From positions 186,001-250,000 of the forward strand of contig NZ_VOHS01000001.1 of the NCBI RefSeq assembly GCF_007896845.1: 64,000 bases of DNA, written 5' to 3'. This document shows positions 12,022 through 24,351 of this stretch, in pieces. The translations under genes and the position numbers were made by a program. The stretch comes from Chitinophaga pinensis (GTDB taxonomy: Bacteria; Bacteroidota; Bacteroidia; Chitinophagales; Chitinophagaceae). A model generated the notes under the pieces. That model had not been told where the DNA came from. It did no database searches and worked only from the letters and a program-made list of their open reading frames with translations. Numbering within the stretch: the stretch's first letter is position 1; every line of letters begins with the position of its first letter.

Positions 12022-15000
12022 ATGAAGGAATCAATCCTTATTAAGCTAGAGGCTTCCCGCCGGGAATTACTGGATCTGGGACTACGTAACCCCTTATTGA
12101 ATTACCGTTTACCCGTAAGTCGTGGAGTACATATTGAACAGGAAAGCATCACCAATATTTATGAAGTACTGGTGAAGCAGAGCAAGGCAATGACCTTCCT
12201 CCCCAAAACTGATGTAAAAGAAAAGAAAGAAACAGCAGCAGAAGTAACAGAACCGGTGATATTACCGGAACCTGTCACCTTGCCCGAACCGGAAGAAGTC
12301 GTACACGATACCCGGCTACAGACAACTGAAACTGCTACAGCTTTGCAAAACAGACTACTGAATACCTATTACGCTGCACGTACCAGCCTCGAAGAACAGG
12401 GTGTCAATATTCTGTTCCTGACATTGGGTATGTTAAAGTGGTATGAAAAGGATAACGGAAAGGAAGCACGGTACGCGCCTTTAATATTAATACCTGTTTC
12501 TTTGGAACGCTCCAGCGCAAGAGAACGCTTTCGTTTACGCTATACCGGTAGTGATGTAGAAATGAATCTTAGTCTGCAGACCAAGATCAAAGCAGAATAC
12601 GGTATTGTATTGCCGGACATGCCGGAGTCAGAAGAAATAGCTGTTACAGAATATATACAACAGATCGATGCCGCTATCAATGGAATGGATGGCTGGGAGG
12701 TAACCACAGATGCTGTCGAACTGGGTTTTTTCTCTTTCGGAAAACTAATGTTATATCATGATCTGGATAGCGACGGATGGCCAGCAGATGAACAACCGGC
12801 CAATCATCCTATTCTTCAGAGTTTATTTGGGGATGGATTCTCAGAAGGTGCTCCCGAAGTACCGGAAGATGCATTCATCGATACAGAAACTACCGCGCAC
12901 GAATTACATCAGGTAGTAGATGCAGATGGATCTCAATTACTCGCTATGCTGGCAGTACAGGAGGGACGTAATCTGGTGATACAAGGTCCTCCGGGTACAG
13001 GTAAATCACAGACCATCACTAACCTTATTGCCAACGCAATCGGTGAAGGAAAAAAAGTGTTGTTTGTTGCAGAGAAAATGGCGGCACTTGAAGTCGTAAA
13101 ACGCAGATTGGATAGTATACAACTTGGAGACGCCTGTCTTGAATTGCATAGTCATAAAGCCAATAAAAAAGAATTACATCAGGAGTTAAGAAAAACACTG
13201 GAATTACGTAAGCCTGCTATCCTGCAATTACAACAGGAAGTCACCTTGCTAAATGATTATCGTAAAGAACTAAACGATTATAGTATTGCTGTGAATACAC
13301 CTGTTGGTGAAAGTGGAATTACTCCACAACAACTGATGGGGTATCTGTTACAGCTGAAAGAGCAATTTGTAGATATTACTTTACCGAGAATTGCAATACC
13401 GGATATAGATAGCTGGAATGCTTTAAGCATGCAACGCGCAGAAGCGATGGCTGTCAGGATTGAACATCGTCTGAAGGAGACAGGAATGCCATCTTCTTTA
13501 TTGTTCTGGGGTATCGGATTGACTGTACTTGTTCCCGCTGAACAAGACAGACTTATTCCTGTTTTACAAAAAGCGCTGGATACAACAACATCTCTGCAAC
13601 ATGAAAGTGCGATTATCGCTGGTCAGGTTGGATTACCGATGCCGTTGAACAGAAAGAATAGTATGGACCTTTCTTTCTTTGTACAATTGGCATCTGTGCG
13701 TCCTGATATAAGCGGTGTGCAGTTAAGACATCCTGCCTGGTTACAACAGAAAGAAGATATCAAAGAATTACTGCAAACAGGAAAACGCTTACGTCAGATA
13801 CATCAGGCATATGATGCTATACTTATTCCGGAAGCATGGGATCAGCAGGTGTTGGAAATAAGACAGAACCTGTTGGCATATGGAGATAAATGGTATAAAT
13901 TTCTGAAAGGAGATTATAACAAAACCAATCGTCAGCTGGCTGCTCTATGTAAAGCAGGAGCACCTGATACTTTGCCCGAAAAACTGGCTTGCGTAGATGC
14001 AATACTCGAAGCAAGAAGATTGGACAAACAGTTACAGGAACAGGAAACATTGGCGAAAGAATTATTCCAGCAACGTTGGCAGAAAGGTCAATCTAACTGG
14101 GAAGCACTCGAAACCATTACTAATTATATAACGGAAGTACATAAACAAATCAGTTACGGTACATGTACAGCTGTTATCCTTGATTATCTCGAAAAGAATG
14201 AGCCGGTTGAAATAGCAAAACGTTATTATGATACCTTGCTGAGAACATTGCAACAACAAGGCGCTGCTATTGATGCAGTGATTGCTGCTTTTGCTTTGAA
14301 CGAACAACGTCGCTTCAGAGATGTTACGCCACTTCTGCAACGTCCCTATGAAGAACAGATTGTAATGATGCAATCATGGATAGATGGATTACCCGATATA
14401 CATCATGCGATCTCGTGGAATAATCTGGCGGATACTGCAAAAACAGAAGGCCTGTCAGTATTGACAGAAGCAGTAGCATACTGGCCGGAAGCAGTGACGG
14501 CATTAAAAGGTGCATTGCAAAAAACATGGTTTGAATACCTGTGGGAAAAAGCACTCATGACACATGCTTCAATCAGGAAGTTTGAAAGATCAAGTCATGA
14601 AGCAGCTGTCAAACAATTTGTAAAATTAGATACACTCAATCTCCAGTATAACAGAGCACGTGCCGCGTTAAAACACTATGAGGGGATCCCTCCATTGGAG
14701 GCCGGCGGACAAGTAAACGTATTGCGTACCGAGTTTAATAAAAAGGCGAGACATATGCCTATCCGTAAATTGGTACAGGCAGCCGGACTGGCAATACAGG
14801 CCATCAAACCGGTGTTTATGATGAGTCCTCTTTCTATTGCTAATTTCCTTCCACCTGGTTCTTTACAGTTTGATCTGGTCATCTTTGACGAAGCGAGTCA
14901 GGTAAGACCTGTTGATGCATTAGGTGCGTTGCTGAGAGGAAAGCAGTTAGTAGTGGTGGGCGATAGTAAACAGTTGCCACCAAGTAGTTTCTTTGATTCA

Positions 15001-16698
15001 CTGATGAAGGAAGTAGACGATGAAGAAAACGTAACTGCAGATATGCCGAGCATACTGGGTATGTGTGACGCACAGGGAGCTCCACAAAGAATGTTGCGTT
15101 GGCATTATCGTAGCCGTCACGAATCATTGATTACGATGTCGAATCATGAGTTTTATGAAAATAAACTGGTGATCTTTCCAAGCCCCGGTGCTGCGCATAA
15201 GATGGGATTAGTTTATCATCATCTGAAAGAGGCAACATACGATCGTGGTAAAACAAGAACCAATCAACAGGAAGCAGAGGCTATTACTTCAGCCGTGATC
15301 GAACATGCAAAACAACATCCTGAAATGAGTTTAGGTGTTGTTGCTTTCAGTACCGCACAGATGCAGGCGATACAACAATCGCTTGAAGCGGCCAGAAAGA
15401 AATTGCCGGAGTTGGAATCATTCTTCAAAGCACACCCACACGAACCATTCTTTGTGAAAAATCTGGAGAATGTACAGGGAGATGAGCGTGATGTAATATT
15501 TATCAGTATAGGTTATGGTCGTACGCCGGAAGGAACAATCAGTCTTGCATTCGGACCACTTAACAATGAAGGAGGAGAGAAACGGCTGAACGTATTGATC
15601 ACGCGTGCAAAACAACGATGCGAAGTATTTACGAATCTGACTTCAGATGATATCGATCTGAATAAAACAGAAAGCGAAGGTGTACGTGCTCTGAAGAACT
15701 TCCTGTATTTCGCGCAACATGGTTCTATGCATCGATCTTATGCAGATGGATTGCCTGCAAATATTCCTTTTGAAACATTGGTTGCAGAACAACTGACAGC
15801 TGCAGGTTATAACGTGAAAAAACAGATTGGCAGCAAAGGATTCTATATTGATCTGGCGATTATTGATCCGGAACATCCGGGCAAATATATCATGGGGATT
15901 ATGTGTGATGGTGCTGCCTATCATTCTGCCCGTTCTGCAAAAGACAGAGATAGATTACGTCAGCAGGTACTGGAAAATATGGGATGGAATATCTATACTG
16001 TATGGAGCACCGATTGGTTCCGTCATCCCGTACGCGAATTGAAAAGACTGATTGCAGCAATTGAAGAGTTGCGTGCAAATGAAGGAGAACCTCAGGAAGC
16101 GATTGTACCGGAAGACTATACTATGCTAAGAGAGGAAGAAGAGGAGGGAGCAGATGTGCCATTATACGAAATGGCTGTATTACCAGAGGAAATAGCGTTA
16201 AAAGATTTGCATCAACATCCGTCAGATAAACTGAGATCATGGCTGGAAATGATTGTACGCGTGGAGAGTCCGGTGCATGTGGAAGAAGCTACGCGAAGAA
16301 TACTGGATGCTGCGGATGTATCCCGGGTGGGTAACAGGATTCGTGAGGTATTAAAACAGGCGATAGCAGATGCTGTAGGCAATGATACGGTTGTTGTGAA
16401 AGACGAATTCCTCTGGGATGCGGAGATGGAGAAACCGTTGGTGCGCAGCAGAGCGAATCTTCCTTCCGCATCACGAAAGATGACTTATATAGCACCGGAA
16501 GAATTAGGAGCAGTTGTTGAGAAAACAGTACAGGATGCAGTTGCAATTACTGTAACAGCAGCAATACCTGTTATTGCAAAAACATTAGGCTTTGCACGTG
16601 TAACGGAAGATCTGCGTACAGATTTGCAGGAGGCGGTAGAAAAAGCCCTGGCAGATGGTATCATCTACCAGGACGATGAGTGGTTAAAAGTAAAGTAG
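12022..16698 (+). CDS. Large superfamily 1 helicase with DUF4011, Vsr-like nuclease and DUF3320 domains
   Basis: 1558 residues. The N-terminus (LEASRRELLDLGLRNPLLNY) is the DUF4011-type domain. The helicase core has Walker A GPPGTGKS at 322-329, a long helical insertion, Walker B DEAS near 956, VVGDSKQLPP near 979, QGDERDV near 1152 and LITRAK near 1192. Then comes a Vsr/DUF559-like nuclease domain (IDLAIIDP near 1276, CDGAAYHSARSAKDRDR near 1295, ENMGWNIYTVWSTDWF) and a C-terminal DUF3320-type segment (LRSWLEMIVRVESPVHVEE). Proteins with this architecture are often found near defence genes, but their function is not established. It ends one base before the stop codon of the convergent VWA gene, with no terminator between. 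Confidence 0.88.
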   Translation: MKESILIKLEASRRELLDLGLRNPLLNYRLPVSRGVHIEQESITNIYEVLVKQSKAMTFLPKTDVKEKKETAAEVTEPVILPEPVTLPEPEEVVHDTRLQTTETATALQNRLLNTYYAARTSLEEQGVNILFLTLGMLKWYEKDNGKEARYAPLILIPVSLERSSARERFRLRYTGSDVEMNLSLQTKIKAEYGIVLPDMPESEEIAVTEYIQQIDAAINGMDGWEVTTDAVELGFFSFGKLMLYHDLDSDGWPADEQPANHPILQSLFGDGFSEGAPEVPEDAFIDTETTAHELHQVVDADGSQLLAMLAVQEGRNLVIQGPPGTGKSQTITNLIANAIGEGKKVLFVAEKMAALEVVKRRLDSIQLGDACLELHSHKANKKELHQELRKTLELRKPAILQLQQEVTLLNDYRKELNDYSIAVNTPVGESGITPQQLMGYLLQLKEQFVDITLPRIAIPDIDSWNALSMQRAEAMAVRIEHRLKETGMPSSLLFWGIGLTVLVPAEQDRLIPVLQKALDTTTSLQHESAIIAGQVGLPMPLNRKNSMDLSFFVQLASVRPDISGVQLRHPAWLQQKEDIKELLQTGKRLRQIHQAYDAILIPEAWDQQVLEIRQNLLAYGDKWYKFLKGDYNKTNRQLAALCKAGAPDTLPEKLACVDAILEARRLDKQLQEQETLAKELFQQRWQKGQSNWEALETITNYITEVHKQISYGTCTAVILDYLEKNEPVEIAKRYYDTLLRTLQQQGAAIDAVIAAFALNEQRRFRDVTPLLQRPYEEQIVMMQSWIDGLPDIHHAISWNNLADTAKTEGLSVLTEAVAYWPEAVTALKGALQKTWFEYLWEKALMTHASIRKFERSSHEAAVKQFVKLDTLNLQYNRARAALKHYEGIPPLEAGGQVNVLRTEFNKKARHMPIRKLVQAAGLAIQAIKPVFMMSPLSIANFLPPGSLQFDLVIFDEASQVRPVDALGALLRGKQLVVVGDSKQLPPSSFFDSLMKEVDDEENVTADMPSILGMCDAQGAPQRMLRWHYRSRHESLITMSNHEFYENKLVIFPSPGAAHKMGLVYHHLKEATYDRGKTRTNQQEAEAITSAVIEHAKQHPEMSLGVVAFSTAQMQAIQQSLEAARKKLPELESFFKAHPHEPFFVKNLENVQGDERDVIFISIGYGRTPEGTISLAFGPLNNEGGEKRLNVLITRAKQRCEVFTNLTSDDIDLNKTESEGVRALKNFLYFAQHGSMHRSYADGLPANIPFETLVAEQLTAAGYNVKKQIGSKGFYIDLAIIDPEHPGKYIMGIMCDGAAYHSARSAKDRDRLRQQVLENMGWNIYTVWSTDWFRHPVRELKRLIAAIEELRANEGEPQEAIVPEDYTMLREEEEEGADVPLYEMAVLPEEIALKDLHQHPSDKLRSWLEMIVRVESPVHVEEATRRILDAADVSRVGNRIREVLKQAIADAVGNDTVVVKDEFLWDAEMEKPLVRSRANLPSASRKMTYIAPEELGAVVEKTVQDAVAITVTAAIPVIAKTLGFARVTEDLRTDLQEAVEKALADGIIYQDDEWLKVK

Positions 16699-17829
16699 TT
16701 ATTTCTTTAGTATAAAATCTTCTCTGGCTGCCCAGTTGTTGATATCCTGTTTACTCAGGGCGGCAGCCATCAGATCAGGAAATTTATCGGGCGTACAGGC
16801 AAACACCGGAATACCCAGATTGGACAGAAATTGTGCATTACCGTGATCATAAGCGGGAGCACCATCATCGTTCAAAGCAAGTAATACGATGACCTGTACG
16901 CCCGCTGCTGTTAATTCAGTAGCGCGTTTACGCATCTTATCATCACTTCCTCCTTCAAACAGATCGGTGATCAGTACCAATACCGTATCTGTCGGACGGG
17001 TAATGATCTGCTGACAATAGGAGAGTGCCGCCTGTATATCTGTTCCTCCACCAAGTTGTACACCAAATAAAAGATCAACAGGATCTTTCAGCTCTTCTGT
17101 AAGATCGGCAACAGCAGTATCAAAGACGACCATACGTGTTTTAATAGCAGGTATGGAAGCCATTACAGAGCCGAAGATACCCGAATAGACAACAGATGAA
17201 CCCATCGACCCACTCTGGTCAAGACAAAGCACTACGTCTTTCAATGAAGTCGTTCTACGGCCGTATCCAATACGTGTTTCAGGGATGATCGTTTTATACT
17301 CCGGTTGATAATGCCGCAGGTTCTTAAGAATAGTTGCGTGCCAGTTGATCTCGTTGTGACGAGGCCTTCTGTTACGGATACTCCTGTGCAGACTTCCGGT
17401 AATAGCCTGTAAAGTGGGCTGTGTCAGTTTTTTCAGGAGTTCGTCTACAACACGTTTCACAACTTGCCTCGCCGTGTCACGGGTCTTATCTGGAATAGCA
17501 TGTTTTAATGTAAGTAATGTAGCCACCAGATGTACATCCGGTTCTACATTTTCCAGCATTTCCTTTTCAAACAACATCTGTGTGATATTCAGGCGTTGTA
17601 AAGCATCACGTTGCATAATCTGCACAACAGATGCAGGAAAGAAGGTACGGATATCGCCCAGCCAGCGGCTGACATTAGGAGAGGAAGCACCAAGGCCTCC
17701 TTTCTTTTCGCTGTCATACAAAGCTTCCAGTGTTTTATCCATCTGGAGCTCTGTGCCGCTGAGTGAATAACCAGTACCGTCAGATTCATTTCCGCCAAGT
17801 ACCAGCCGCCATTTATTTAAATCATCCAT
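16699..17829 (-). CDS. VWA-domain protein of the MoxR/SWIM/DUF5682/DUF5691 operon
   Basis: 376 residues. The C-terminal half is a von Willebrand A domain with an intact metal-ion-dependent adhesion site: DQSGS at 204-208, T263 in GGGTD, and D289 in LITDLFEGG. The N-terminal half is helical. No signal peptide or membrane segment is visible, so it is cytosolic. VWA proteins of this kind pair with MoxR-type AAA+ ATPases, acting as adaptor or substrate-binding partner, as in ChlD/ChlI and CoxE/CoxD. It is the last gene of a five-gene operon and lies 7 bases after the DUF5682 gene. Confidence 0.88.
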   Translation of the reverse strand: MDDLNKWRLVLGGNESDGTGYSLSGTELQMDKTLEALYDSEKKGGLGASSPNVSRWLGDIRTFFPASVVQIMQRDALQRLNITQMLFEKEMLENVEPDVHLVATLLTLKHAIPDKTRDTARQVVKRVVDELLKKLTQPTLQAITGSLHRSIRNRRPRHNEINWHATILKNLRHYQPEYKTIIPETRIGYGRRTTSLKDVVLCLDQSGSMGSSVVYSGIFGSVMASIPAIKTRMVVFDTAVADLTEELKDPVDLLFGVQLGGGTDIQAALSYCQQIITRPTDTVLVLITDLFEGGSDDKMRKRATELTAAGVQVIVLLALNDDGAPAYDHGNAQFLSNLGIPVFACTPDKFPDLMAAALSKQDINNWAAREDFILKK

Positions 17830-17836
17830 ATCTGTA

Positions 17837-20083
17837 TTATTTAACGCCCAACATTTGCAGCACGACAGGAACGCCTCTCAGTGCTCTTATAGCATCAATG
17901 TTCTCCATTGTTTGCTGAGATACACCGGTAGTACCACTGATACCACCTTTTGCTTTTTCTCCGAGTTTTCTTCTTTCTGCTTTCGTAAAGCCGGAGAAGG
18001 TTCTGCGTAACAACGGGAGTAGTTGTTTAAATGCATCTTCTTCCAGTTGATGCATCCAGTTATATACTACTGTCCAGAGATCATTGTCTACCAACAGTAA
18101 TGTACCGCTGCCTTTCAGAAATCCTTCCAGCCAGGCAGCAGCAGTAACAGGTGGCGTAGCAGCAGACATTGCATAACTGAATACTCTTACCAGATCATTG
18201 CCGGATAATTGTCTGTGATCGGCCAGCAATCTTGTAGCATAACCACCGATAACGGGAGCGGAGCTGTCATTGCCGGCGATGTGAGAGATTGTTTGTTGCC
18301 ATTGTGTCGTCAGTTCAGGATCCTGTAAGATGAGTAAAGCATCATTCATATTGTAGATCAGCTCCAGCAATTCAGCTGCTGCATCATCCGCAATACCAAT
18401 ACAGGCGGCAGGCAAACTAATACAGATACGCGTGATCATACCGGCAACAATATTGTCAACCAATGTCGCATCTGTTTTTCGCACGTTACCATAACGGCTG
18501 ATCTGCACCAGACCGGGAATAACGGTCATCAGTTGCATCACATCACCAGTAGCAGCCGCCAGATTGTTCACCTGTTGTACGAGTGCTTCTACGGCATTAT
18601 GCAGTTCTGCGGGAATAGCAGTTTCAAGCAGCGTACAAACTTCCTTCAGAGAGGTAGCAGTTTTTGCCTGATGTTGTACATATTGAGAGGCCGCTTCTTC
18701 CACTGTATTTCCCCAGCTTCCCTTTTCAATAATATCAATAGAGAATCCGGGATCCCATTGTAAACGCCATTGCTCCTTAAAAGTACCTTTACCCGAAGGT
18801 CCATAACGATGTCCCCAACGGATGTCCAGCATCTCCATACGGTGTAGCAGGATACTACGTTCAAGATCTGTGTCCTTACGGAGATCGAGTACATAGTCTT
18901 TATAGTCAGCAGTTTGCGGTAACCGTAATTTCTTTTGTAGCTTTTCGATGTCTGTCTGTAAAGGTGGTCGCGGTATATCTGTAGGAACTTCTCCAATCTT
19001 ATCACTGACGATCAGTTCCTGATCAATCAATTGAAGCAGGATATCTTCTCCGTTACAAAGTACGCTGAGCGTCGCTTCATTCAGTTCTTCCAGTCCCGCT
19101 TTGGGCAATCCTCTCAGGCCTGTAAGCGCATTTGCCAGTCGCACGGCTTCCATTACGTGTGCTACGGAAATATCTTTCTGCTGTTCACGGAATAGTCTGG
19201 CTACTCTTGACATCCAACGGGTACCATCATCATCCGGATAGCGCCAGTTATGTTCATACCATCCGGGAGAATTGATACCGGCGCCATATCCGCTGTTGTA
19301 ACTGAGACGGTTATATGTCCAGGGTATCCAGGTAGTAGCTACTTTAACCTTAGGCAGCCCTTTTAGCAGTTCATTATCATCTTTAGCCTTACCCATGTTC
19401 AGGAGGGCAGGAGTGTGCCAGGCACCGCATACAACAGCGATTTCTGTATACATTTCTCTTTCTGCCTGACGAATGGTTTTACGCATATGCGCTTCACGCA
19501 GTTGCTCTTCACGATCATAAGGCAGGTGAAGATCCTGACGGAGTGCCTGCATACCTTCTGCAACAGCGGTAAATACGGCATCGGGGTCCTGTCTGTATTC
19601 GAACATATGTTCCCACCATTTCTCTTCATCCGCAAAACCTGCTGCACCTGCGAGATAGGCAACCGGATTTCTTCTCACGATATGTGTATCGGGAATATAT
19701 GGCGCCAGACTATTATTAAGTGAAGGAGCTTCTTCTGCATCTGCCTTCGGTTCTTTCGCAGCTTTCAGTTCAAACTGATGTGCCATAGGAAGATCCATAA
19801 AGCGTACAGGAATATTATTCCTGCGGGCATACAGAATGGCCTGCCATTCAGGAGAGAACTCTGCAAAGGGATAAAAGACAGCTTTCTGCGGGGCATCAGG
19901 CTGATAAGCCAGAATGGCCACAGGAGGCTTAAGCAGATCGTTGTTTACCCATTCGAGAATGCCGTCAGCTTCCGGCGGACCTTCCACCAAAACAATATCC
20001 GGTTTAACTTTTTCAAGATATTCCTTCACATGTCTGGCAGAGCCGGGTCCGTGATGTCGAATGCCCAGTATGTGTATTGACAT
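17837..20083 (-). CDS. DUF5682 protein, TraB/ChaN-like N-terminal domain
   Basis: 748 residues, no signal peptide. The start, MSIHILGIRHHGPGSARHV, followed by PDIVLVEGPPEAD and later CGAWHTPAL near residue 220, is the pattern of the TraB/ChaN/erythromycin-esterase-like fold, in which such His and Glu residues form an active or metal site. The rest is alpha-helical with no motif I recognise. It is the fourth gene of the operon, 9 bases after the MoxR ATPase gene. An enzymatic role acting on an unknown substrate is inference; the fold assignment is from motif resemblance. Confidence 0.82.
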   Translation of the reverse strand: MSIHILGIRHHGPGSARHVKEYLEKVKPDIVLVEGPPEADGILEWVNNDLLKPPVAILAYQPDAPQKAVFYPFAEFSPEWQAILYARRNNIPVRFMDLPMAHQFELKAAKEPKADAEEAPSLNNSLAPYIPDTHIVRRNPVAYLAGAAGFADEEKWWEHMFEYRQDPDAVFTAVAEGMQALRQDLHLPYDREEQLREAHMRKTIRQAEREMYTEIAVVCGAWHTPALLNMGKAKDDNELLKGLPKVKVATTWIPWTYNRLSYNSGYGAGINSPGWYEHNWRYPDDDGTRWMSRVARLFREQQKDISVAHVMEAVRLANALTGLRGLPKAGLEELNEATLSVLCNGEDILLQLIDQELIVSDKIGEVPTDIPRPPLQTDIEKLQKKLRLPQTADYKDYVLDLRKDTDLERSILLHRMEMLDIRWGHRYGPSGKGTFKEQWRLQWDPGFSIDIIEKGSWGNTVEEAASQYVQHQAKTATSLKEVCTLLETAIPAELHNAVEALVQQVNNLAAATGDVMQLMTVIPGLVQISRYGNVRKTDATLVDNIVAGMITRICISLPAACIGIADDAAAELLELIYNMNDALLILQDPELTTQWQQTISHIAGNDSSAPVIGGYATRLLADHRQLSGNDLVRVFSYAMSAATPPVTAAAWLEGFLKGSGTLLLVDNDLWTVVYNWMHQLEEDAFKQLLPLLRRTFSGFTKAERRKLGEKAKGGISGTTGVSQQTMENIDAIRALRGVPVVLQMLGVK

Positions 20084-20092
20084 ATGAATTGT

Positions 20093-21169
20093 TTATAGAT
20101 CGCGGCAGGCGCGGTAAATATCTTTCCAGTCTTCTCTGGTTTTTACGACAGTCTCGAGGTATTCCAGCCATACAAGTTTATCCTGTACAGGATCTTTTAG
20201 CACAGCACCGATAATACCCGCAGCCAGATCTGCTGCTTTCAGCTGACCATCGCCAAAGTAAGCCGCCATGGCCAGACCGTTATTCACCACAGAAATGGCT
20301 TCTGCTGTACTCAGCGTACCGGATGGAACTTTGATCTTTGTTTTGCCATCAGCAGTTACACCATTTCTTAATTCACGGAAGATGGTTACAATGCGACGGA
20401 TCTCTTCCAATGCCGGTTTCTCAGCCGGCAGATCCATTACTTTCTCATAACTTTCCACACGACGACGCACGATATCTATCTCTTCTTCCATGGAATCAGG
20501 TACGGGCAGAATAACCGTATTAAAACGGCGTTTCAGGGCACTGGAAAGATCGTTTACACCCTTATCCCTGTTATTGGCTGTTGCAATGATATTGAACCCT
20601 TTTTGTGCCATTACAGCGGTATTCAATTCCGGCACCGGAAGTGTTTTTTCAGATAATATGGTGATCAGCGTATCCTGTACATCCGCACTGATACGGGTGA
20701 GTTCTTCAATTCTGACAATCTTACCCGTTTGCATACCACGCATAACAGGGGTTTCTACCAATGCTTTTTCAGAAGGTCCTTCCGCCAGTAATCTGGCATA
20801 GTTCCAGCCATAGCGGATGGCTTCTTCTCCGGTACCTGCAGTACCTTGTACAATCATGGTAGAATCTCCGCTGATAGCAGCCGCAAGGTGTTCGCTCACC
20901 CAGCTTTTGGCTGTACCGGGAAGTCCGTATAATAACAGTGCCCTGTCTGTCGTAAGAGTAGCCACCGCGATCTCTATCAATCTGCGGTTACCGATATATT
21001 TTGGCTGTATTTCAAATCCGTTTTTCAGGGTGCCGCCCATCAGGTAAGTCACAACAGATTGAGGTGACAATACCCAGTTATAGGGACGTTTTTCACTGTC
21101 CTGTTTTTTCAGCTCTTCCAGTTCTTCAAGGAACAATTGTTCTGCATGTTGACGTAATACGTTGGACAT
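20093..21169 (-). CDS. MoxR-type AAA+ ATPase
   Basis: 358 residues. Walker A is GLPGTAKS at 82-89, Walker B IVRIEE at 151-156, sensor 1 ATANN at 196-200 and the arginine-finger region LKRRF at 212-216. The Walker A has Ala instead of Gly before Lys. The variant and the E-E Walker B fit the MoxR/RavA/AAA_5 clade of chaperone-like ATPases, which remodel partner proteins together with VWA proteins. It is the third gene of the operon, and its VWA partner is encoded two genes downstream. Confidence 0.9.
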   Translation of the reverse strand: MSNVLRQHAEQLFLEELEELKKQDSEKRPYNWVLSPQSVVTYLMGGTLKNGFEIQPKYIGNRRLIEIAVATLTTDRALLLYGLPGTAKSWVSEHLAAAISGDSTMIVQGTAGTGEEAIRYGWNYARLLAEGPSEKALVETPVMRGMQTGKIVRIEELTRISADVQDTLITILSEKTLPVPELNTAVMAQKGFNIIATANNRDKGVNDLSSALKRRFNTVILPVPDSMEEEIDIVRRRVESYEKVMDLPAEKPALEEIRRIVTIFRELRNGVTADGKTKIKVPSGTLSTAEAISVVNNGLAMAAYFGDGQLKAADLAAGIIGAVLKDPVQDKLVWLEYLETVVKTREDWKDIYRACRDL

Positions 21170-21211
21170 CTTTATATGCTTGAAAAGGTGATTGTTATGT
21201 GTTGAATGATT

Positions 21212-22660
21212 TTATTTGAAGGCGTTTGTTATCTGCACTTTGCAGGAAATCAGTTTTCTTATATGATCGCTGGTATTCCTCCAGGTACCCTGATAGGCGG
21301 GTTCTTCCGGTGTCAGTTTATCCAGTTCTTCTACGATCGCCGGAGGTAGCTGTAACACATGTTTGTCAAAGAAATTACGGGTATACTGATAAGGATTGCG
21401 GGCCATCCATTTCAGTACTTCAGCGGTAAGACTAAGTCCCCATTCTTCTGTGCGGTTGCTGAGGTAATTGATTACATCCTGCGGATAAGTAGCAAACAGG
21501 CGCAATGCGTATTCCTCTTGTTCGGCAGCAGGTAATAAAGGAATAACATCAGGATAAAAAGTGGTACTGGTAGCTAATAATAAACGGAGCCACGCAGCAT
21601 CTTTAAAACGGCCTGCAGCAAGTATCAATGCAGGAATAAACCGTTTACCCAGATCATCGTTCTGGAAGATGTCGATCACTTCTTCCTTGTCAACTTTGAA
21701 GTGTGATTCCCACCAAACCGGAGGCACACTGCCAGCCAGCTGAAAAAGGATATAAGCTTCTTCACTGAGATGCTTTTCATTGCTCAGTGTAGCGATACCT
21801 GAATCAATAATGATCTTATCCAGCGGTAATTGCAGAGATATTTGAAGTGATTGTTTTGCGCCACGTGAAACAGCCTGTTGTAGTACCTGCCAGTAAGCCT
21901 GTACGATAAATGAAGAGGGGATCTGTTTCAGCAGTGCCCATATTTCATCCTTTACTTTCTGATTTTTCTCCTGCAATGATTCCAGCCAGCGAAGGTCATC
22001 TTCACTGATGTTCGTGCGCATGATTTTCAGGAATTCTGTTCTGGCAGAAGTATTCTCCTGTGTCCATGTCTGCATCAGCCAATCCCGTCCTATACCGGGA
22101 AAAGATTGACGCATTTCCTGAAGCACCTGTCTGCGGTCTTCAGCACTGCCTGTCTGCCAGCGATCTTCATTACTGAGCGAAAAAGGGAATTGCCAGTCCG
22201 CATTCATATTGCTGAGCCATTGACCACGTTTCCCACAAACTGCCATCGTCAGGTGACGGATACGTTTTTGAGAAACCGCAGTTTCCAGTAATACCGGAAT
22301 ATATTCCGGTACCACGATCTGGCCTTTATCATAGCAGGCTTCCAGCCAATAGGTAACCAATGGCAGCAGATCCATATCGAGTGCATCCTGTAGCGCATAT
22401 ATAGCTGCTTTATTACAATAAGGTTGCTCTTCAGGTGGAGCTGCCTGCAAAGGAACGCCGCTGTTATGTTCAGCACTGACACCACTCTGGCGATAATTTA
22501 GTACGATCGCTGCTATGTGCAGAAACTGTGTTTCAGCATCGAGTGATCTGTCCTCCATGATAGTAGTGGCAACAGTCGCAAGGTCTGTTGGAAGCTCCGC
22601 AGGAGACAACTGTTTTTTGCCGGTACCCAGAAGGGCCGTGTTAATGATATTATTCCACAT
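21212..22660 (-). CDS. DUF5691 protein
   Basis: 482 residues, cytosolic, mostly alpha-helical with repeat-like helices (HEAT-like by eye). The start, MWNNIINTALLGTGKKQL, is characteristic of DUF5691 proteins, which are consistently found with SWIM, MoxR, DUF5682 and VWA genes in several phyla as far as I recall. No catalytic motif is visible, so a scaffold or adaptor role is the simplest guess. It lies 5 bases after the SWIM gene. Confidence 0.8.
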   Translation of the reverse strand: MWNNIINTALLGTGKKQLSPAELPTDLATVATTIMEDRSLDAETQFLHIAAIVLNYRQSGVSAEHNSGVPLQAAPPEEQPYCNKAAIYALQDALDMDLLPLVTYWLEACYDKGQIVVPEYIPVLLETAVSQKRIRHLTMAVCGKRGQWLSNMNADWQFPFSLSNEDRWQTGSAEDRRQVLQEMRQSFPGIGRDWLMQTWTQENTSARTEFLKIMRTNISEDDLRWLESLQEKNQKVKDEIWALLKQIPSSFIVQAYWQVLQQAVSRGAKQSLQISLQLPLDKIIIDSGIATLSNEKHLSEEAYILFQLAGSVPPVWWESHFKVDKEEVIDIFQNDDLGKRFIPALILAAGRFKDAAWLRLLLATSTTFYPDVIPLLPAAEQEEYALRLFATYPQDVINYLSNRTEEWGLSLTAEVLKWMARNPYQYTRNFFDKHVLQLPPAIVEELDKLTPEEPAYQGTWRNTSDHIRKLISCKVQITNAFK

Positions 22661-22665
22661 GTCCC

Positions 22666-23970
22666 TTATAACAATTTATAGACGCCGTTGTGCCAGACGC
22701 CGAGGGGTTCATATTCCTGTTCCTTACCCAGCAGTGCCATATCCAATGGTTGGCCGCCACTGAGGGAGAGCAGTTTCCAGATATTACGGAAGCCGTCTTT
22801 TACAGGCATGATCTGATCGTTGCTGTCTTTGAGCCACCATTTCATATTATGCTGGACAGGTGTCAGCTGTTGTACAATATAAGGGCGTTCGCTGCGGACA
22901 GGCATCTTTTCTGTCAGTGAAGTTTCAGCTGCTGTAAGTTCCTGCCAGCCGGGAAGACCATAGGTGTCCTGCAGATTGTTGTTGGTAACAGGTTCTTTGA
23001 TCAATGCCCTTAGCGGGCTCTCTGATGGAAAGAATACCAGTTCCGCTTCTATAGACATACCTGCTGTCAACAGTAGCTGTGGTCTGGACATGCCTCTTGC
23101 ATAGAACTGGAGTACCAGTGCAGGCTGATAGGAATGCAGACCATAAAGCCAGTATTTTTCGGTAGTAAGGTTATCTTCTTCGGTGACTTGTTTGTTGAGT
23201 ATCAGCCAGGTATCTTTTATGCCGGTCTCTTGTCGCAAAGCTTCCTGACTTTGTGTGAATCCGACAAGCGTGCGGAGTTCCTGTTGTAACAATGGAGAAA
23301 GGGCTTCTCCCTGTCTGAAACCCTGAATAACGAGGTAGATACGGAGCAATTGTTCCATGAAGGAATGTTGCCAGCCTTCACTATAGAAGTTGATCTCAGA
23401 GAGGCCACGTACCATGGCTGCTAATCCGGGTGCCTGTGCATCCACCATACGGCGGGCCATTGTTTCCCAGTAGGAGGCGCCTTTTTCCGGCAACTGCAGC
23501 AGGCCATTACGGATGATATCTTTCATCCAGAGCAGCAGCTCATGAATACCATCTTCTACTTTCTGCTGACGGGCCTGTTGCCGTTTATCACGGGCAACTT
23601 CGTCTACCTGTTTTTCTTCTTTGTCCTGTTTTTTGATTTCTTTGCCGGCTCTTTTTTCCAGCCATTCACTGACCCATGAAGGAGGAGTATTGTCGGTGAA
23701 GGTACCAGACTCACGGGCATATAGCAACATGAGGCCAATACCATGTTTGCACGGAAATTTGCGGCTCGGACAACTACATTTGAAAGCGGTTCCGGCGAGG
23801 TCTATCTGGGTTTGATACGGTTTGCTGCCACTCCCCTGGCATTCTCCCCACAAGGCTTGTTCATTCGCCCCTTTACTCACCCATTTTGCTGCACCAGCCA
23901 GTGCCTTTCCGGCTTTTCTGGAAGCTTCGTCCGGTGCTAAGGAAAGCACCTGTTCTTCTGTTAGGAGCAA
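22666..23970 (-). CDS. SWIM zinc-finger protein, first gene of the MoxR/VWA operon
   Basis: 434 residues. The SWIM zinc finger CxCx6CxH is complete: C65, C67, C74 and H76 in KCSCPSRKFPCKHG, with the usual GIGLMLLY after it. SWIM domains bind nucleic acid or proteins. A lysine/glutamate-rich linker follows at about residues 110-135, and the C-terminal 300 residues are of unknown fold. It opens the operon; the next gene starts 5 bases on, so translation is probably coupled. Confidence 0.87.
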   Translation of the reverse strand: MLLTEEQVLSLAPDEASRKAGKALAGAAKWVSKGANEQALWGECQGSGSKPYQTQIDLAGTAFKCSCPSRKFPCKHGIGLMLLYARESGTFTDNTPPSWVSEWLEKRAGKEIKKQDKEEKQVDEVARDKRQQARQQKVEDGIHELLLWMKDIIRNGLLQLPEKGASYWETMARRMVDAQAPGLAAMVRGLSEINFYSEGWQHSFMEQLLRIYLVIQGFRQGEALSPLLQQELRTLVGFTQSQEALRQETGIKDTWLILNKQVTEEDNLTTEKYWLYGLHSYQPALVLQFYARGMSRPQLLLTAGMSIEAELVFFPSESPLRALIKEPVTNNNLQDTYGLPGWQELTAAETSLTEKMPVRSERPYIVQQLTPVQHNMKWWLKDSNDQIMPVKDGFRNIWKLLSLSGGQPLDMALLGKEQEYEPLGVWHNGVYKLL

Positions 23971-24009: not shown

Positions 24010-24351
24010 TTACGCCAGCAATACCTTGTATATTCTGGAATATAACATCACGAGATAGGTGATCAGGATAACTGAATTCAAAACGAGTAACCAGTTTACA
24101 TCAACCTGCTGGTATTTATTCTTCTTACAAAGAATGGCCAGCCAAAGGAAACCGATTAAAAGAATGCCCGGAAATACCAGTGTCCATTTATTCGTGATGA
24201 TAAGATGTGCATTAGCGATACGGTCATTCCATCCCTGATCATTCCCCGCTACCAGCGGCAGGATGCCCATGAACAGCACGATAACAAATATTCTCACAGC
24301 CGTTTTAGCTGCCGTTTTGCTGATTTTCTGACGTTTACTTTCCTGTTGCAT
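24010..24351 (-). CDS. Small membrane protein of unknown function
   Basis: 113 residues: a basic cytosolic head (MQQESKRQKISKTAAK) and three predicted membrane helices around 18-36, 56-75 and 86-105. No family is recognised. It lies between the SWIM operon and a CruF-like gene on the same strand, with about 50 bases to the latter, so the two may be cotranscribed. Confidence 0.65.
   Translation of the reverse strand: MQQESKRQKISKTAAKTAVRIFVIVLFMGILPLVAGNDQGWNDRIANAHLIITNKWTLVFPGILLIGFLWLAILCKKNKYQQVDVNWLLVLNSVILITYLVMLYSRIYKVLLA

Follow-up and report, generated by a model that had tools for sequence, protein, structure and literature searches.

The window examined here is a stretch of 64,000 nucleotides from Chitinophaga pinensis (contig NZ_VOHS01000001.1, positions 186,001 to 250,000), and the subject of this report is an operon on its minus strand, at 16699-23970, in which a MoxR ATPase and its VWA partner stand together with three further genes. 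All five open reading frames (ORFs) are intact. In the order of transcription they encode a SWIM zinc-finger protein (22666..23970; 434 amino acids (aa), TTG start; Pfam PF04434, 21.5 bits against a cut-off of 19.6), a DUF5691 protein (21212..22660; 482 aa; PF18944, 300 bits), a MoxR AAA+ ATPase of the YehL subfamily (20093..21169; 358 aa; AAA_5, 125 bits), a DUF5682 protein (17837..20083; 748 aa; PF18934, 906 bits) and a CoxE-type VWA partner of the ATPase (16699..17829; 376 aa; VWA_CoxE, 155 bits). The gaps along the operon measure 5, 42, 9 and 7 bases, so that ORFs, spacing and Pfam assignments agree with the five-gene layout and the 5-42 base intervals given in an earlier note on this DNA. 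That note took the MoxR protein with its VWA partner to be the engine of the set, a reading that is supported. In MoxR the Walker A K, Walker B EE, sensor N and RR show no change among 83 of 83 relatives; the same holds, again for 83 of 83, of the DxSxS of the VWA MIDAS motif, whose T and D are kept in 81 of 83 each. The MIDAS motif of the window protein is intact. Against Protein Data Bank (PDB) sequences, the sole match of the window MoxR was Midasin.

The gene set is real, and its members co-occur far beyond chance. An alignment scan of named genomes for DUF5682 gave at least 593 stretches, at least 579 of them relatives, and the best 80 of these were kept and combined with ten loci from Escherichia coli, plasmid and phage records into a set of 90. 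All five families were present at 68 of the 90 loci, in identical order and orientation at every one of the 68; where the locus extended more than 6.5 kilobases (kb) before and more than 2.5 kb after DUF5682, the full five were found in 54 of 63 cases. Loci with all five genes come from Bacteroidota, Cyanobacteria, Planctomycetes, Proteobacteria, Chloroflexi, Verrucomicrobia, Acidobacteria, Armatimonadetes, Actinobacteria, Deinococcota and one Mailhella metagenome-assembled genome (MAG), the phylum assignments being presumptive. The closest DUF5682 proteins outside the window's own genome, among the matches listed, belong to Chitinophaga species (77-86% identity), and within the genus DUF5682 is present in 59 of 79 genomes. 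DUF5682 stood at its locus without the other four genes in seven instances (L036, L037, L043, L050, L056, L085 and L088), some of which are contig ends.

Because the 90-locus set is biased to close relatives of the window DUF5682, a second set of genomes was drawn from three phyla regardless of closeness to it. Counting the centre genomes, the window's phylum has DUF5682 in 7 of 296 genomes, that of Amycolatopsis in 17 of 198 and that of Massilia in 10 of 200. Loci drawn by DUF5682 alone numbered 42, that is, 45 less three fetched for DUF5691 and lacking DUF5682 (L095, L098 and L100); the window locus and L091 of the centre genome G296 were left out, L125 of the centre genome G297 was included, and two DUF5682 rows in G353 represent one locus. 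MoxR lay nearby in 40 of these 42 and VWA in 39, while DUF5691 and a window-type SWIM protein were both present in 23. The earlier note had proposed a single co-inherited set and had named families living mostly apart as the observation that would speak against it; in the co-occurrence survey across genomes they did not live mostly apart, and the proposal stands. In the sample of the window's phylum, a DUF5691 match (E 0.001) was found in all 7 genomes with DUF5682, in 6 of them over the cut-off (that of G162 lies below the curated cut-off), and an eighth match, also below it, came from a genome (G014) without such a MoxR. Two further arrangements were seen in the samples. In L101-L107, from the Amycolatopsis-phylum sample, SWIM-DUF5691 is divergent from MoxR-DUF5682-VWA across one shared intergenic region. 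L123 and L124 carry a third, divergent form of DUF5682 in the order VWA-MoxR-DUF5682, in which no SWIM protein was found, and some genomes of that sample hold two or three DUF5682 loci.

The coupling of these genes appears to be functional and not merely positional, because some of them are fused and because they are found together even when scattered. SWIM and DUF5691 share one open frame in five of the 90 loci (L003, L038, L073, L079 and L080) and in L118, and DUF5682 is fused to VWA in L010, L115-L117, L119 and L120. In two genomes of the window's taxonomic order (G037 and G178) the genes are scattered, yet MoxR, DUF5682 and DUF5691 are all present; VWA was seen in G178 only, and SWIM was not sought genome-wide in either. 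The distance matrices computed from 70 loci for each of the five proteins correlate pairwise with r between 0.71 and 0.92, each value being reached by none of 200 permutations, and shared species history contributes to these correlations. Conservation falls from the motor to the adaptor, with median identities to the window proteins, across 69 loci, of 72.9% for MoxR, 61.9% for VWA, 45.7% for DUF5682, 38.1% for SWIM and 24.4% for DUF5691, which thus diverges fastest.

In E. coli K-12, yehL (MoxR), yehM, yehP (VWA) and yehQ (SWIM) lie in a row. The window MoxR matches YehL (38% identity, E 3e-74 to 6e-74), the window DUF5682 matches YehM (29%, E 6e-41) and the window VWA matches YehP (34%, E 2e-75), whereas against RavA, the other E. 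coli MoxR, the window MoxR reaches only a non-significant E of 0.05; the operon is therefore read as a DUF5691-type variant of the YehL operon, and that it belongs to the YehL type is all but certain. Pfam identifies YehM as DUF5682 and YehQ as a SWIM protein, although YehQ and the window SWIM protein gave no significant match (E 0.1 at best, over 27 residues at the zinc finger). The two operons share homologues of MoxR, DUF5682 and VWA together with a SWIM protein. They differ in order, MoxR-DUF5682-VWA-SWIM in E. coli against SWIM-DUF5691-MoxR-DUF5682-VWA in the window, and in the yeh region no DUF5691 was found, DUF4132 genes (yehH/molR and yehI) and a WGR gene (yehF) lying alongside instead. 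RavA-ViaA is likewise a MoxR and VWA pair, but no DUF5682 or SWIM gene lies in the 8 kb around ravA-viaA. Of 5426 E. coli genomes, 5301 contain a match to the yehLMPQ sister operon, and in 5162 the match spans at least 80% of its length. YehL is a named subfamily of MoxR ATPases (PMC3893208). Since that subfamily is named and the sister operon annotated, the earlier description of an undescribed system cannot be kept as such; what survives of it is that neither a function nor the make-up of the gene set (SWIM/DUF5691/MoxR/DUF5682/VWA) was found among the papers listed from the literature searched, most subscription journals lying outside its coverage. Among the papers listed within the same coverage, yehL, yehM, yehP and yehQ appeared in gene lists and as incidental mutations with no function found, and no paper on DUF5682 or DUF5691 was found; the available parts of PMC12409786 and PMC6442406 give yehM and yehQ as mutations or strains only, with no mechanism. 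An AAA+ machine of at least 11 presumed bacterial phyla, with a sister in nearly every E. coli, is thus one whose function was not found in that literature.

DUF5691 is probably a helical-repeat scaffold or adaptor, to judge from its sequence, and it appears to be replaceable. Among the 42 loci, 16 have MoxR without DUF5691; eight of these have a DUF4132 gene instead, and in five others DUF5682 is fused to VWA with a SWIM-motif frame adjoining. In Fusobacterium (L007, 5941-7851) a 637-aa protein without a Pfam match takes the DUF5691 place between SWIM and MoxR, and is possibly a third type of scaffold. DUF4132 (MolR-like) lies in or beside the operon at ten fetched loci, from which its profile was built, and at 8 of 45 further loci. 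As it is found both in Allorhizobium (L009), where a WGR-DUF4132 protein lies between DUF5682 and VWA, and in several Chitinophagaceae (L016, L018-L021 and L025), where it directly follows VWA, DUF4132 can accompany both variants. Homology between DUF5691 and DUF4132 was considered and set aside: the hhalign match (P 0.003, probability 10%, 64 columns) fits two helical-repeat families and is no proof of kinship. DUF4132 as an obligate sixth part was rejected, because DUF5682 is present in only one of nine DUF4132 genomes of the Bacteroidota sample, namely the window's own, and absent from the other eight. In that genome a DUF4132 match lies in a 227-aa frame (C50:10319-10732), and pieces with in-frame stops lie at C69:287-764. 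In Massilia (G297, C99:67951-95833) eight DUF4132 matches stand just before an E. coli-type MoxR-DUF5682-VWA locus, in what looks like an expansion of scaffold genes.

The N-terminal part of DUF5682 is likely a putative hydrolase domain of the TraB/Tiki-like kind, a reading that takes invariant residues, profile comparison and a match of the predicted structure together. In the AlphaFold2 model (mean predicted local distance difference test score (pLDDT) 91) an alpha/beta domain at the N terminus is followed by a long stretch of helices; the protein can be divided into a TraB/Tiki-like domain (about 1-270, with GxxH at 7-10, E34, R196 and GxxH at 220-223) and a helical-repeat region (about 416-716). 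H10, E34, D97, R182, R196, E197, G220 and H223 are identical in 96 of 96 proteins and G7 in 94 of 96, and the invariant site residues are kept in E. coli YehM too; the His/Glu motifs that the earlier note had called TraB-like (H10, E34 and H223) are thus confirmed as invariant. Paired GxxH motifs with a Glu and an Arg are presumably the defining pattern of the TraB family. In TraB/GumN proteins of the same genus and order, G48-x-x-H51, E77, R245 and G267-x-x-H270 are invariant in 23 of 23, and the pattern runs in the same order as in DUF5682 and with similar spacing (H to E, 24 in DUF5682 against 26 in GumN; R to the second G, 24 against 22), while DUF5682 differs from TraB/PrgY/GumN (Tiki-like) proteins in its extra C-terminal helical-repeat part and in the position of its gene beside a MoxR motor. 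Aligned by hhalign with a profile of 25 GumN proteins, the N-terminal domain gave P 0.0035 (probability 9.3%); none of 60 column shuffles did as well, and a reversed profile and four unrelated ones gave P 0.11-0.36. The best structure match of residues 1-235 was a Tetrahymena complex IV chain, 8bqs_DQ (Z 10.0, root-mean-square deviation 4.5, 181 residues), and the paper on that complex reports a TraB-family accessory subunit (PMC10060162). No TraB, ChaN or EreA entry appears by name among the structure matches listed for DUF5682. Against PDB sequences neither the DUF5682 profile (best E 0.13) nor the GumN profile (best E 0.006, an unrelated protein) found a relative, and a TraB search in the phylum of L044 gave none in 81.

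The SWIM protein carries the SWIM motif CxCx6CxH as C65, C67, C74 and H76, and these zinc ligands are identical in 73 of 73 relatives. Its AlphaFold2 model (mean pLDDT 93.8) comprises the zinc finger, a helical middle and, at about 244-430, a second half that in the model resembles a tandem OB fold. Structure matches to this half include SSB (Z 7.5), RecO (Z 7.1) and baculovirus LEF-3 (Z 6.9), and the tandem OB folds of RPA70 align over 154 residues (1fgu, Z 6.3) and 167 residues (1jmc, Z 6.1); Foldseek returned HIN, LEF-3, CST and RPA chains at E 0.002 to 0.1. Searched with the SWIM profile, PDB sequences gave no relative. As the Z values are middling and superantigens and complement are also among the matches, the OB fold itself is a likelier reading than a function in binding nucleic acid. 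Compared with the earlier note, which had spoken of a zinc-finger protein, a helical-repeat protein and a TraB/ChaN-like domain, the TraB/GumN-like pattern of DUF5682, the tandem OB-like half of the SWIM protein and a fast-evolving DUF5691 with DUF4132 as its alternative are new; the E. coli sister operon and the identity of the convergent neighbour as an anti-phage ProA-type helicase also go beyond it.

These features allow a tentative model, to which we give rather less than an even chance as a whole, in which the SWIM/OB protein recognises the targets and a MoxR-VWA motor drives a TraB/Tiki-like hydrolase on them, in the service of cell maintenance or the response to stress. MoxR would form a hexamer, and VWA would plug the ring and grip an acidic patch of the target via its MIDAS metal, by analogy with NorQ/NorD, for which a VWA finger inserted into the MoxR ring, a MIDAS grip on the target and an ATP-driven movement that remodels the target rather than threading it have been proposed (PMC9976466). 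In the window system such movement would activate the DUF5682 hydrolase, or position it on the target. Tiki-family domains are metalloproteases, and DUF5682 would most likely be a metal-dependent protease. The SWIM/OB protein would recognise the target, probably a nucleic acid or a protein bound to one if the predicted fold is a guide, and the DUF5691 scaffold would adapt the machine to it, a part that DUF4132, in some cases with WGR, may play in many E. coli-type loci. The motor step draws on knowledge of the MoxR-VWA family, the hydrolase step on invariant residues and the recognition step on a predicted fold. The job would be maintenance or recovery from stress rather than dedicated phage defence, because the system is held by most genomes of the genus and near-universal in E. 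coli, is rare on plasmids and not found in IMG/VR by a search for close relatives, and has no frequent defence neighbour. The candidate hydrolase site, the candidate nucleic-acid-binding half and the replaceable scaffold make an old annotation gap testable in E. coli mutants and assays.

Several observations weigh against this model. The mechanism is read throughout from sequence, gene context and predicted structure, and the activities in it are putative. The match to the GumN profile, with a probability of only 9.3%, is confined to the second half of the site, the Pfam scan gave DUF5682 no PF01963 match, neither the DUF5682 nor the SWIM model had a Foldseek match at E 0.001 or better, and chain 8bqs_DQ is not confirmed as the TraB-family subunit. 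The OB-fold matches (Z 5.7-7.5) are middling and fall in a range that the structure-search tool rates as common. OB folds also bind sugars and proteins. The patchy spread over the three sampled phyla is unlike that of a general housekeeping machine, and at several loci (L094, L097, L099, L050, L085, L088 and others) the genes are dispersed or some are missing there. It may instead be that the MoxR-VWA pair acts on DUF5682 as its client.

This last possibility belongs to an alternative in which MoxR-VWA is a maturation chaperone that remodels DUF5682, or an unlinked metalloenzyme, for the insertion of a cofactor, in the manner of NorQ/NorD, CoxD/CoxE and CbbQ/CbbO, DUF5682 being a client or an assembly factor. 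We consider this somewhat unlikely. The MoxR-VWA pairs whose role is known serve dedicated protein complexes (PMC3893208, PMC9976466), and the three pairs named have the same combination of a MoxR ring and a VWA/MIDAS partner, with which the VWA_CoxE assignment of the window protein accords; each of them, however, serves one target enzyme, whereas the YehL type has a candidate hydrolase within the set, its His/Glu/Arg pattern complete in 96 of 96, and no enzyme that recurs beside it. The latter was assessed on 138 neighbouring proteins, at most two per side, at 40 of the 48 loci listed (longest-frame ORFs, proteins above 1100 aa or beyond a residue limit left out); no Pfam family occurred in more than five of them, and no enzyme or cofactor family recurred, in keeping with the earlier remark that no metabolic cofactor genes are near. 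A link to molybdate comes through the DUF4132 neighbour molR, which Lee et al. (1990), as cited in PMC8533742 and PMC4245954, describe as required for molybdate use in E. coli; the latter paper also reports that a molR1 deletion strain is slowed when lepA is lost (33 minutes against 22). In Deinococcus radiodurans, however, molybdenum genes such as moeA and moeB are unchanged upon depletion of DdrO, while the DRA0165-DRA0166 operon (DUF4132) and DR2173 (WGR) rise (PMC8533742). The same rise favours a different reading, nucleic-acid-guided proteolysis in DNA or RNA repair, in which SWIM/OB and WGR would load the motor and a TraB/Tiki-like protease on adducts or stalled complexes. With it go the predicted tandem OB-like folds of the SWIM protein, the WGR domain carried by E. 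coli YehF and by the DUF4132 protein at L009, the listing of molR among LexA-regulated genes (PMC11039860, PMC3978071) and a LexA-like site with one mismatch that ends 9 bases before yehF. Yet the E. coli stretch holds 11 such one-mismatch sites against a mean of 6.1, a count reached by 5 of 100 shuffles, and a shared SOS or DdrO regulon was rejected, as none of six exact SOS-type patterns was enriched in the 300 bases before the SWIM match at 91 loci. DUF4132 and WGR, moreover, lie outside the window operon, and the DUF4132 profile has no match in the whole 64-kb window, unlike the E. coli-type variant with its DUF4132 and WGR genes alongside; in the Bacteroidota sample DUF4132 mostly occurs without DUF5682. 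All clues to a task derive from genes that adjoin the operon in the sister variant. With no upstream SOS box enriched and with the yehF site belonging to a class whose count shuffles can reach, the DNA-damage idea stays a lead, and the repair reading is improbable. The boldest reading, which we hold to be very improbable, would be a bacterial machine resembling p97-SPRTN, with a MoxR-VWA motor, a metalloprotease of TraB/Tiki fold and a SWIM/tandem-OB (RPA-like) guide, that removes protein adducts, or proteins that have become stuck, from single-stranded DNA or RNA; if true, part of such a machine (yehLMPQ) sits unrecognised in almost every E. coli.

The earlier note also thought a role in biological conflict plausible, and the operon could belong to the MoxR-vWA ternary kind of anti-phage system, in which case DUF5682 would act as effector, the SWIM/OB protein as sensor and the fast-evolving DUF5691 as the source of specificity. 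The architecture does resemble those systems (PMC7159879), which like the window operon combine MoxR, vWA and further constant parts. They differ from it in that the window VWA has no effector domain by Pfam and that the window MoxR reaches only 24.6 bits with bpMoxR, below the cut-off of 27, and SWIM, TraB, DUF5682, YehL and YehP go unmentioned in the available part of the text that describes them. Pfam at E 0.01 assigned none of the five proteins a VMAP, iSTAND or beta-propeller domain, although fast-evolving iSTAND domains could be missed, and the P-loop of the window MoxR gave a sub-threshold nSTAND6 match. PADLOC has no family into which the five proteins fit; four had no match at E 0.01, and MoxR gave a weak 17-bit IetA match at the P-loop. 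Among the 138 neighbours no PADLOC family exceeded three occurrences (mad3 three, AriA two; no background set was scanned), single defence-like genes being present, such as a GmrSD enzyme at L057. The rapid divergence of DUF5691 and the patchy distribution across phyla suit such a role, but its wide retention does not: 59 of the 79 genomes surveyed in the genus keep it, as do 5301 of 5426 in E. coli in the form of the sister operon. As for mobility, the system was found in 36 of 72,556 plasmid records, several of them chromosome-sized, a single-protein query for close relatives in IMG/VR gave no contig, and one 14-kb UNVERIFIED record labelled 'Bacteriophage sp.', with homologues of MoxR, DUF5682 and VWA beside other large ORFs and no annotation, looks like bacterial DNA; the idea of a mobile system was abandoned on these grounds. 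The convergent ProA-type helicase favours the conflict reading too, in that across the 79 genomes ProA and DUF5682 occur together in 50, DUF5682 alone in 9, ProA alone in 3 and neither in 17, kinship being uncorrected in these counts, but ProA adjoins the operon in only 18. A conflict role is accordingly little supported and, in our judgement, unlikely.

This helicase (12022-16698, plus strand, 1558 aa) is a DUF4011/SF1 protein with an MTES_1575 nuclease domain and runs towards the operon so that its stop codon abuts that of the VWA gene (16698/16699). It matches the NCBIfam anti-phage ProA family with 1553 bits (cut-off 1500) and PADLOC PDC-S37 over its full length. ProA was rejected as a part of the system, as outside the 18 genomes it lies elsewhere or is absent, and L012-L014 are the only fetched loci where its cluster is seen again. 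A candidate terminator of the operon (16645..16674, minus strand), a 13-pair hairpin with a T tail that is a match to the consensus only, begins at 16674, 25 bases beyond the VWA stop and within the 3' end of the helicase gene. It is one of two terminator-like sites on the minus strand of the region, the weaker being a 5-pair hairpin inside DUF5691; because 11 such sites were found on both strands against 6.3 expected, weak ones mean little. At the other end, a 113-aa ORF (24010-24351, minus strand) lies on the same strand 39 bases upstream of the SWIM gene; it gave no match in a Pfam scan, and has relatives in L012-L014.

Clustering of 945 flanking ORFs gave DUF4132 at 10 loci, a loose cluster of ABC-type ATPases at 9, sensor kinases at 6 and transporters at 6, three of the last being syntenic Chitinophaga loci. 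In single genomes, the GmrSD-type restriction endonuclease of L057, a cyanobacterial MAG, lies directly after the operon (12757-14415), and in a Leptolyngbya MAG (L048, 2212-5015) a pair of TldD/TldE-like metallopeptidases lies directly upstream of it.

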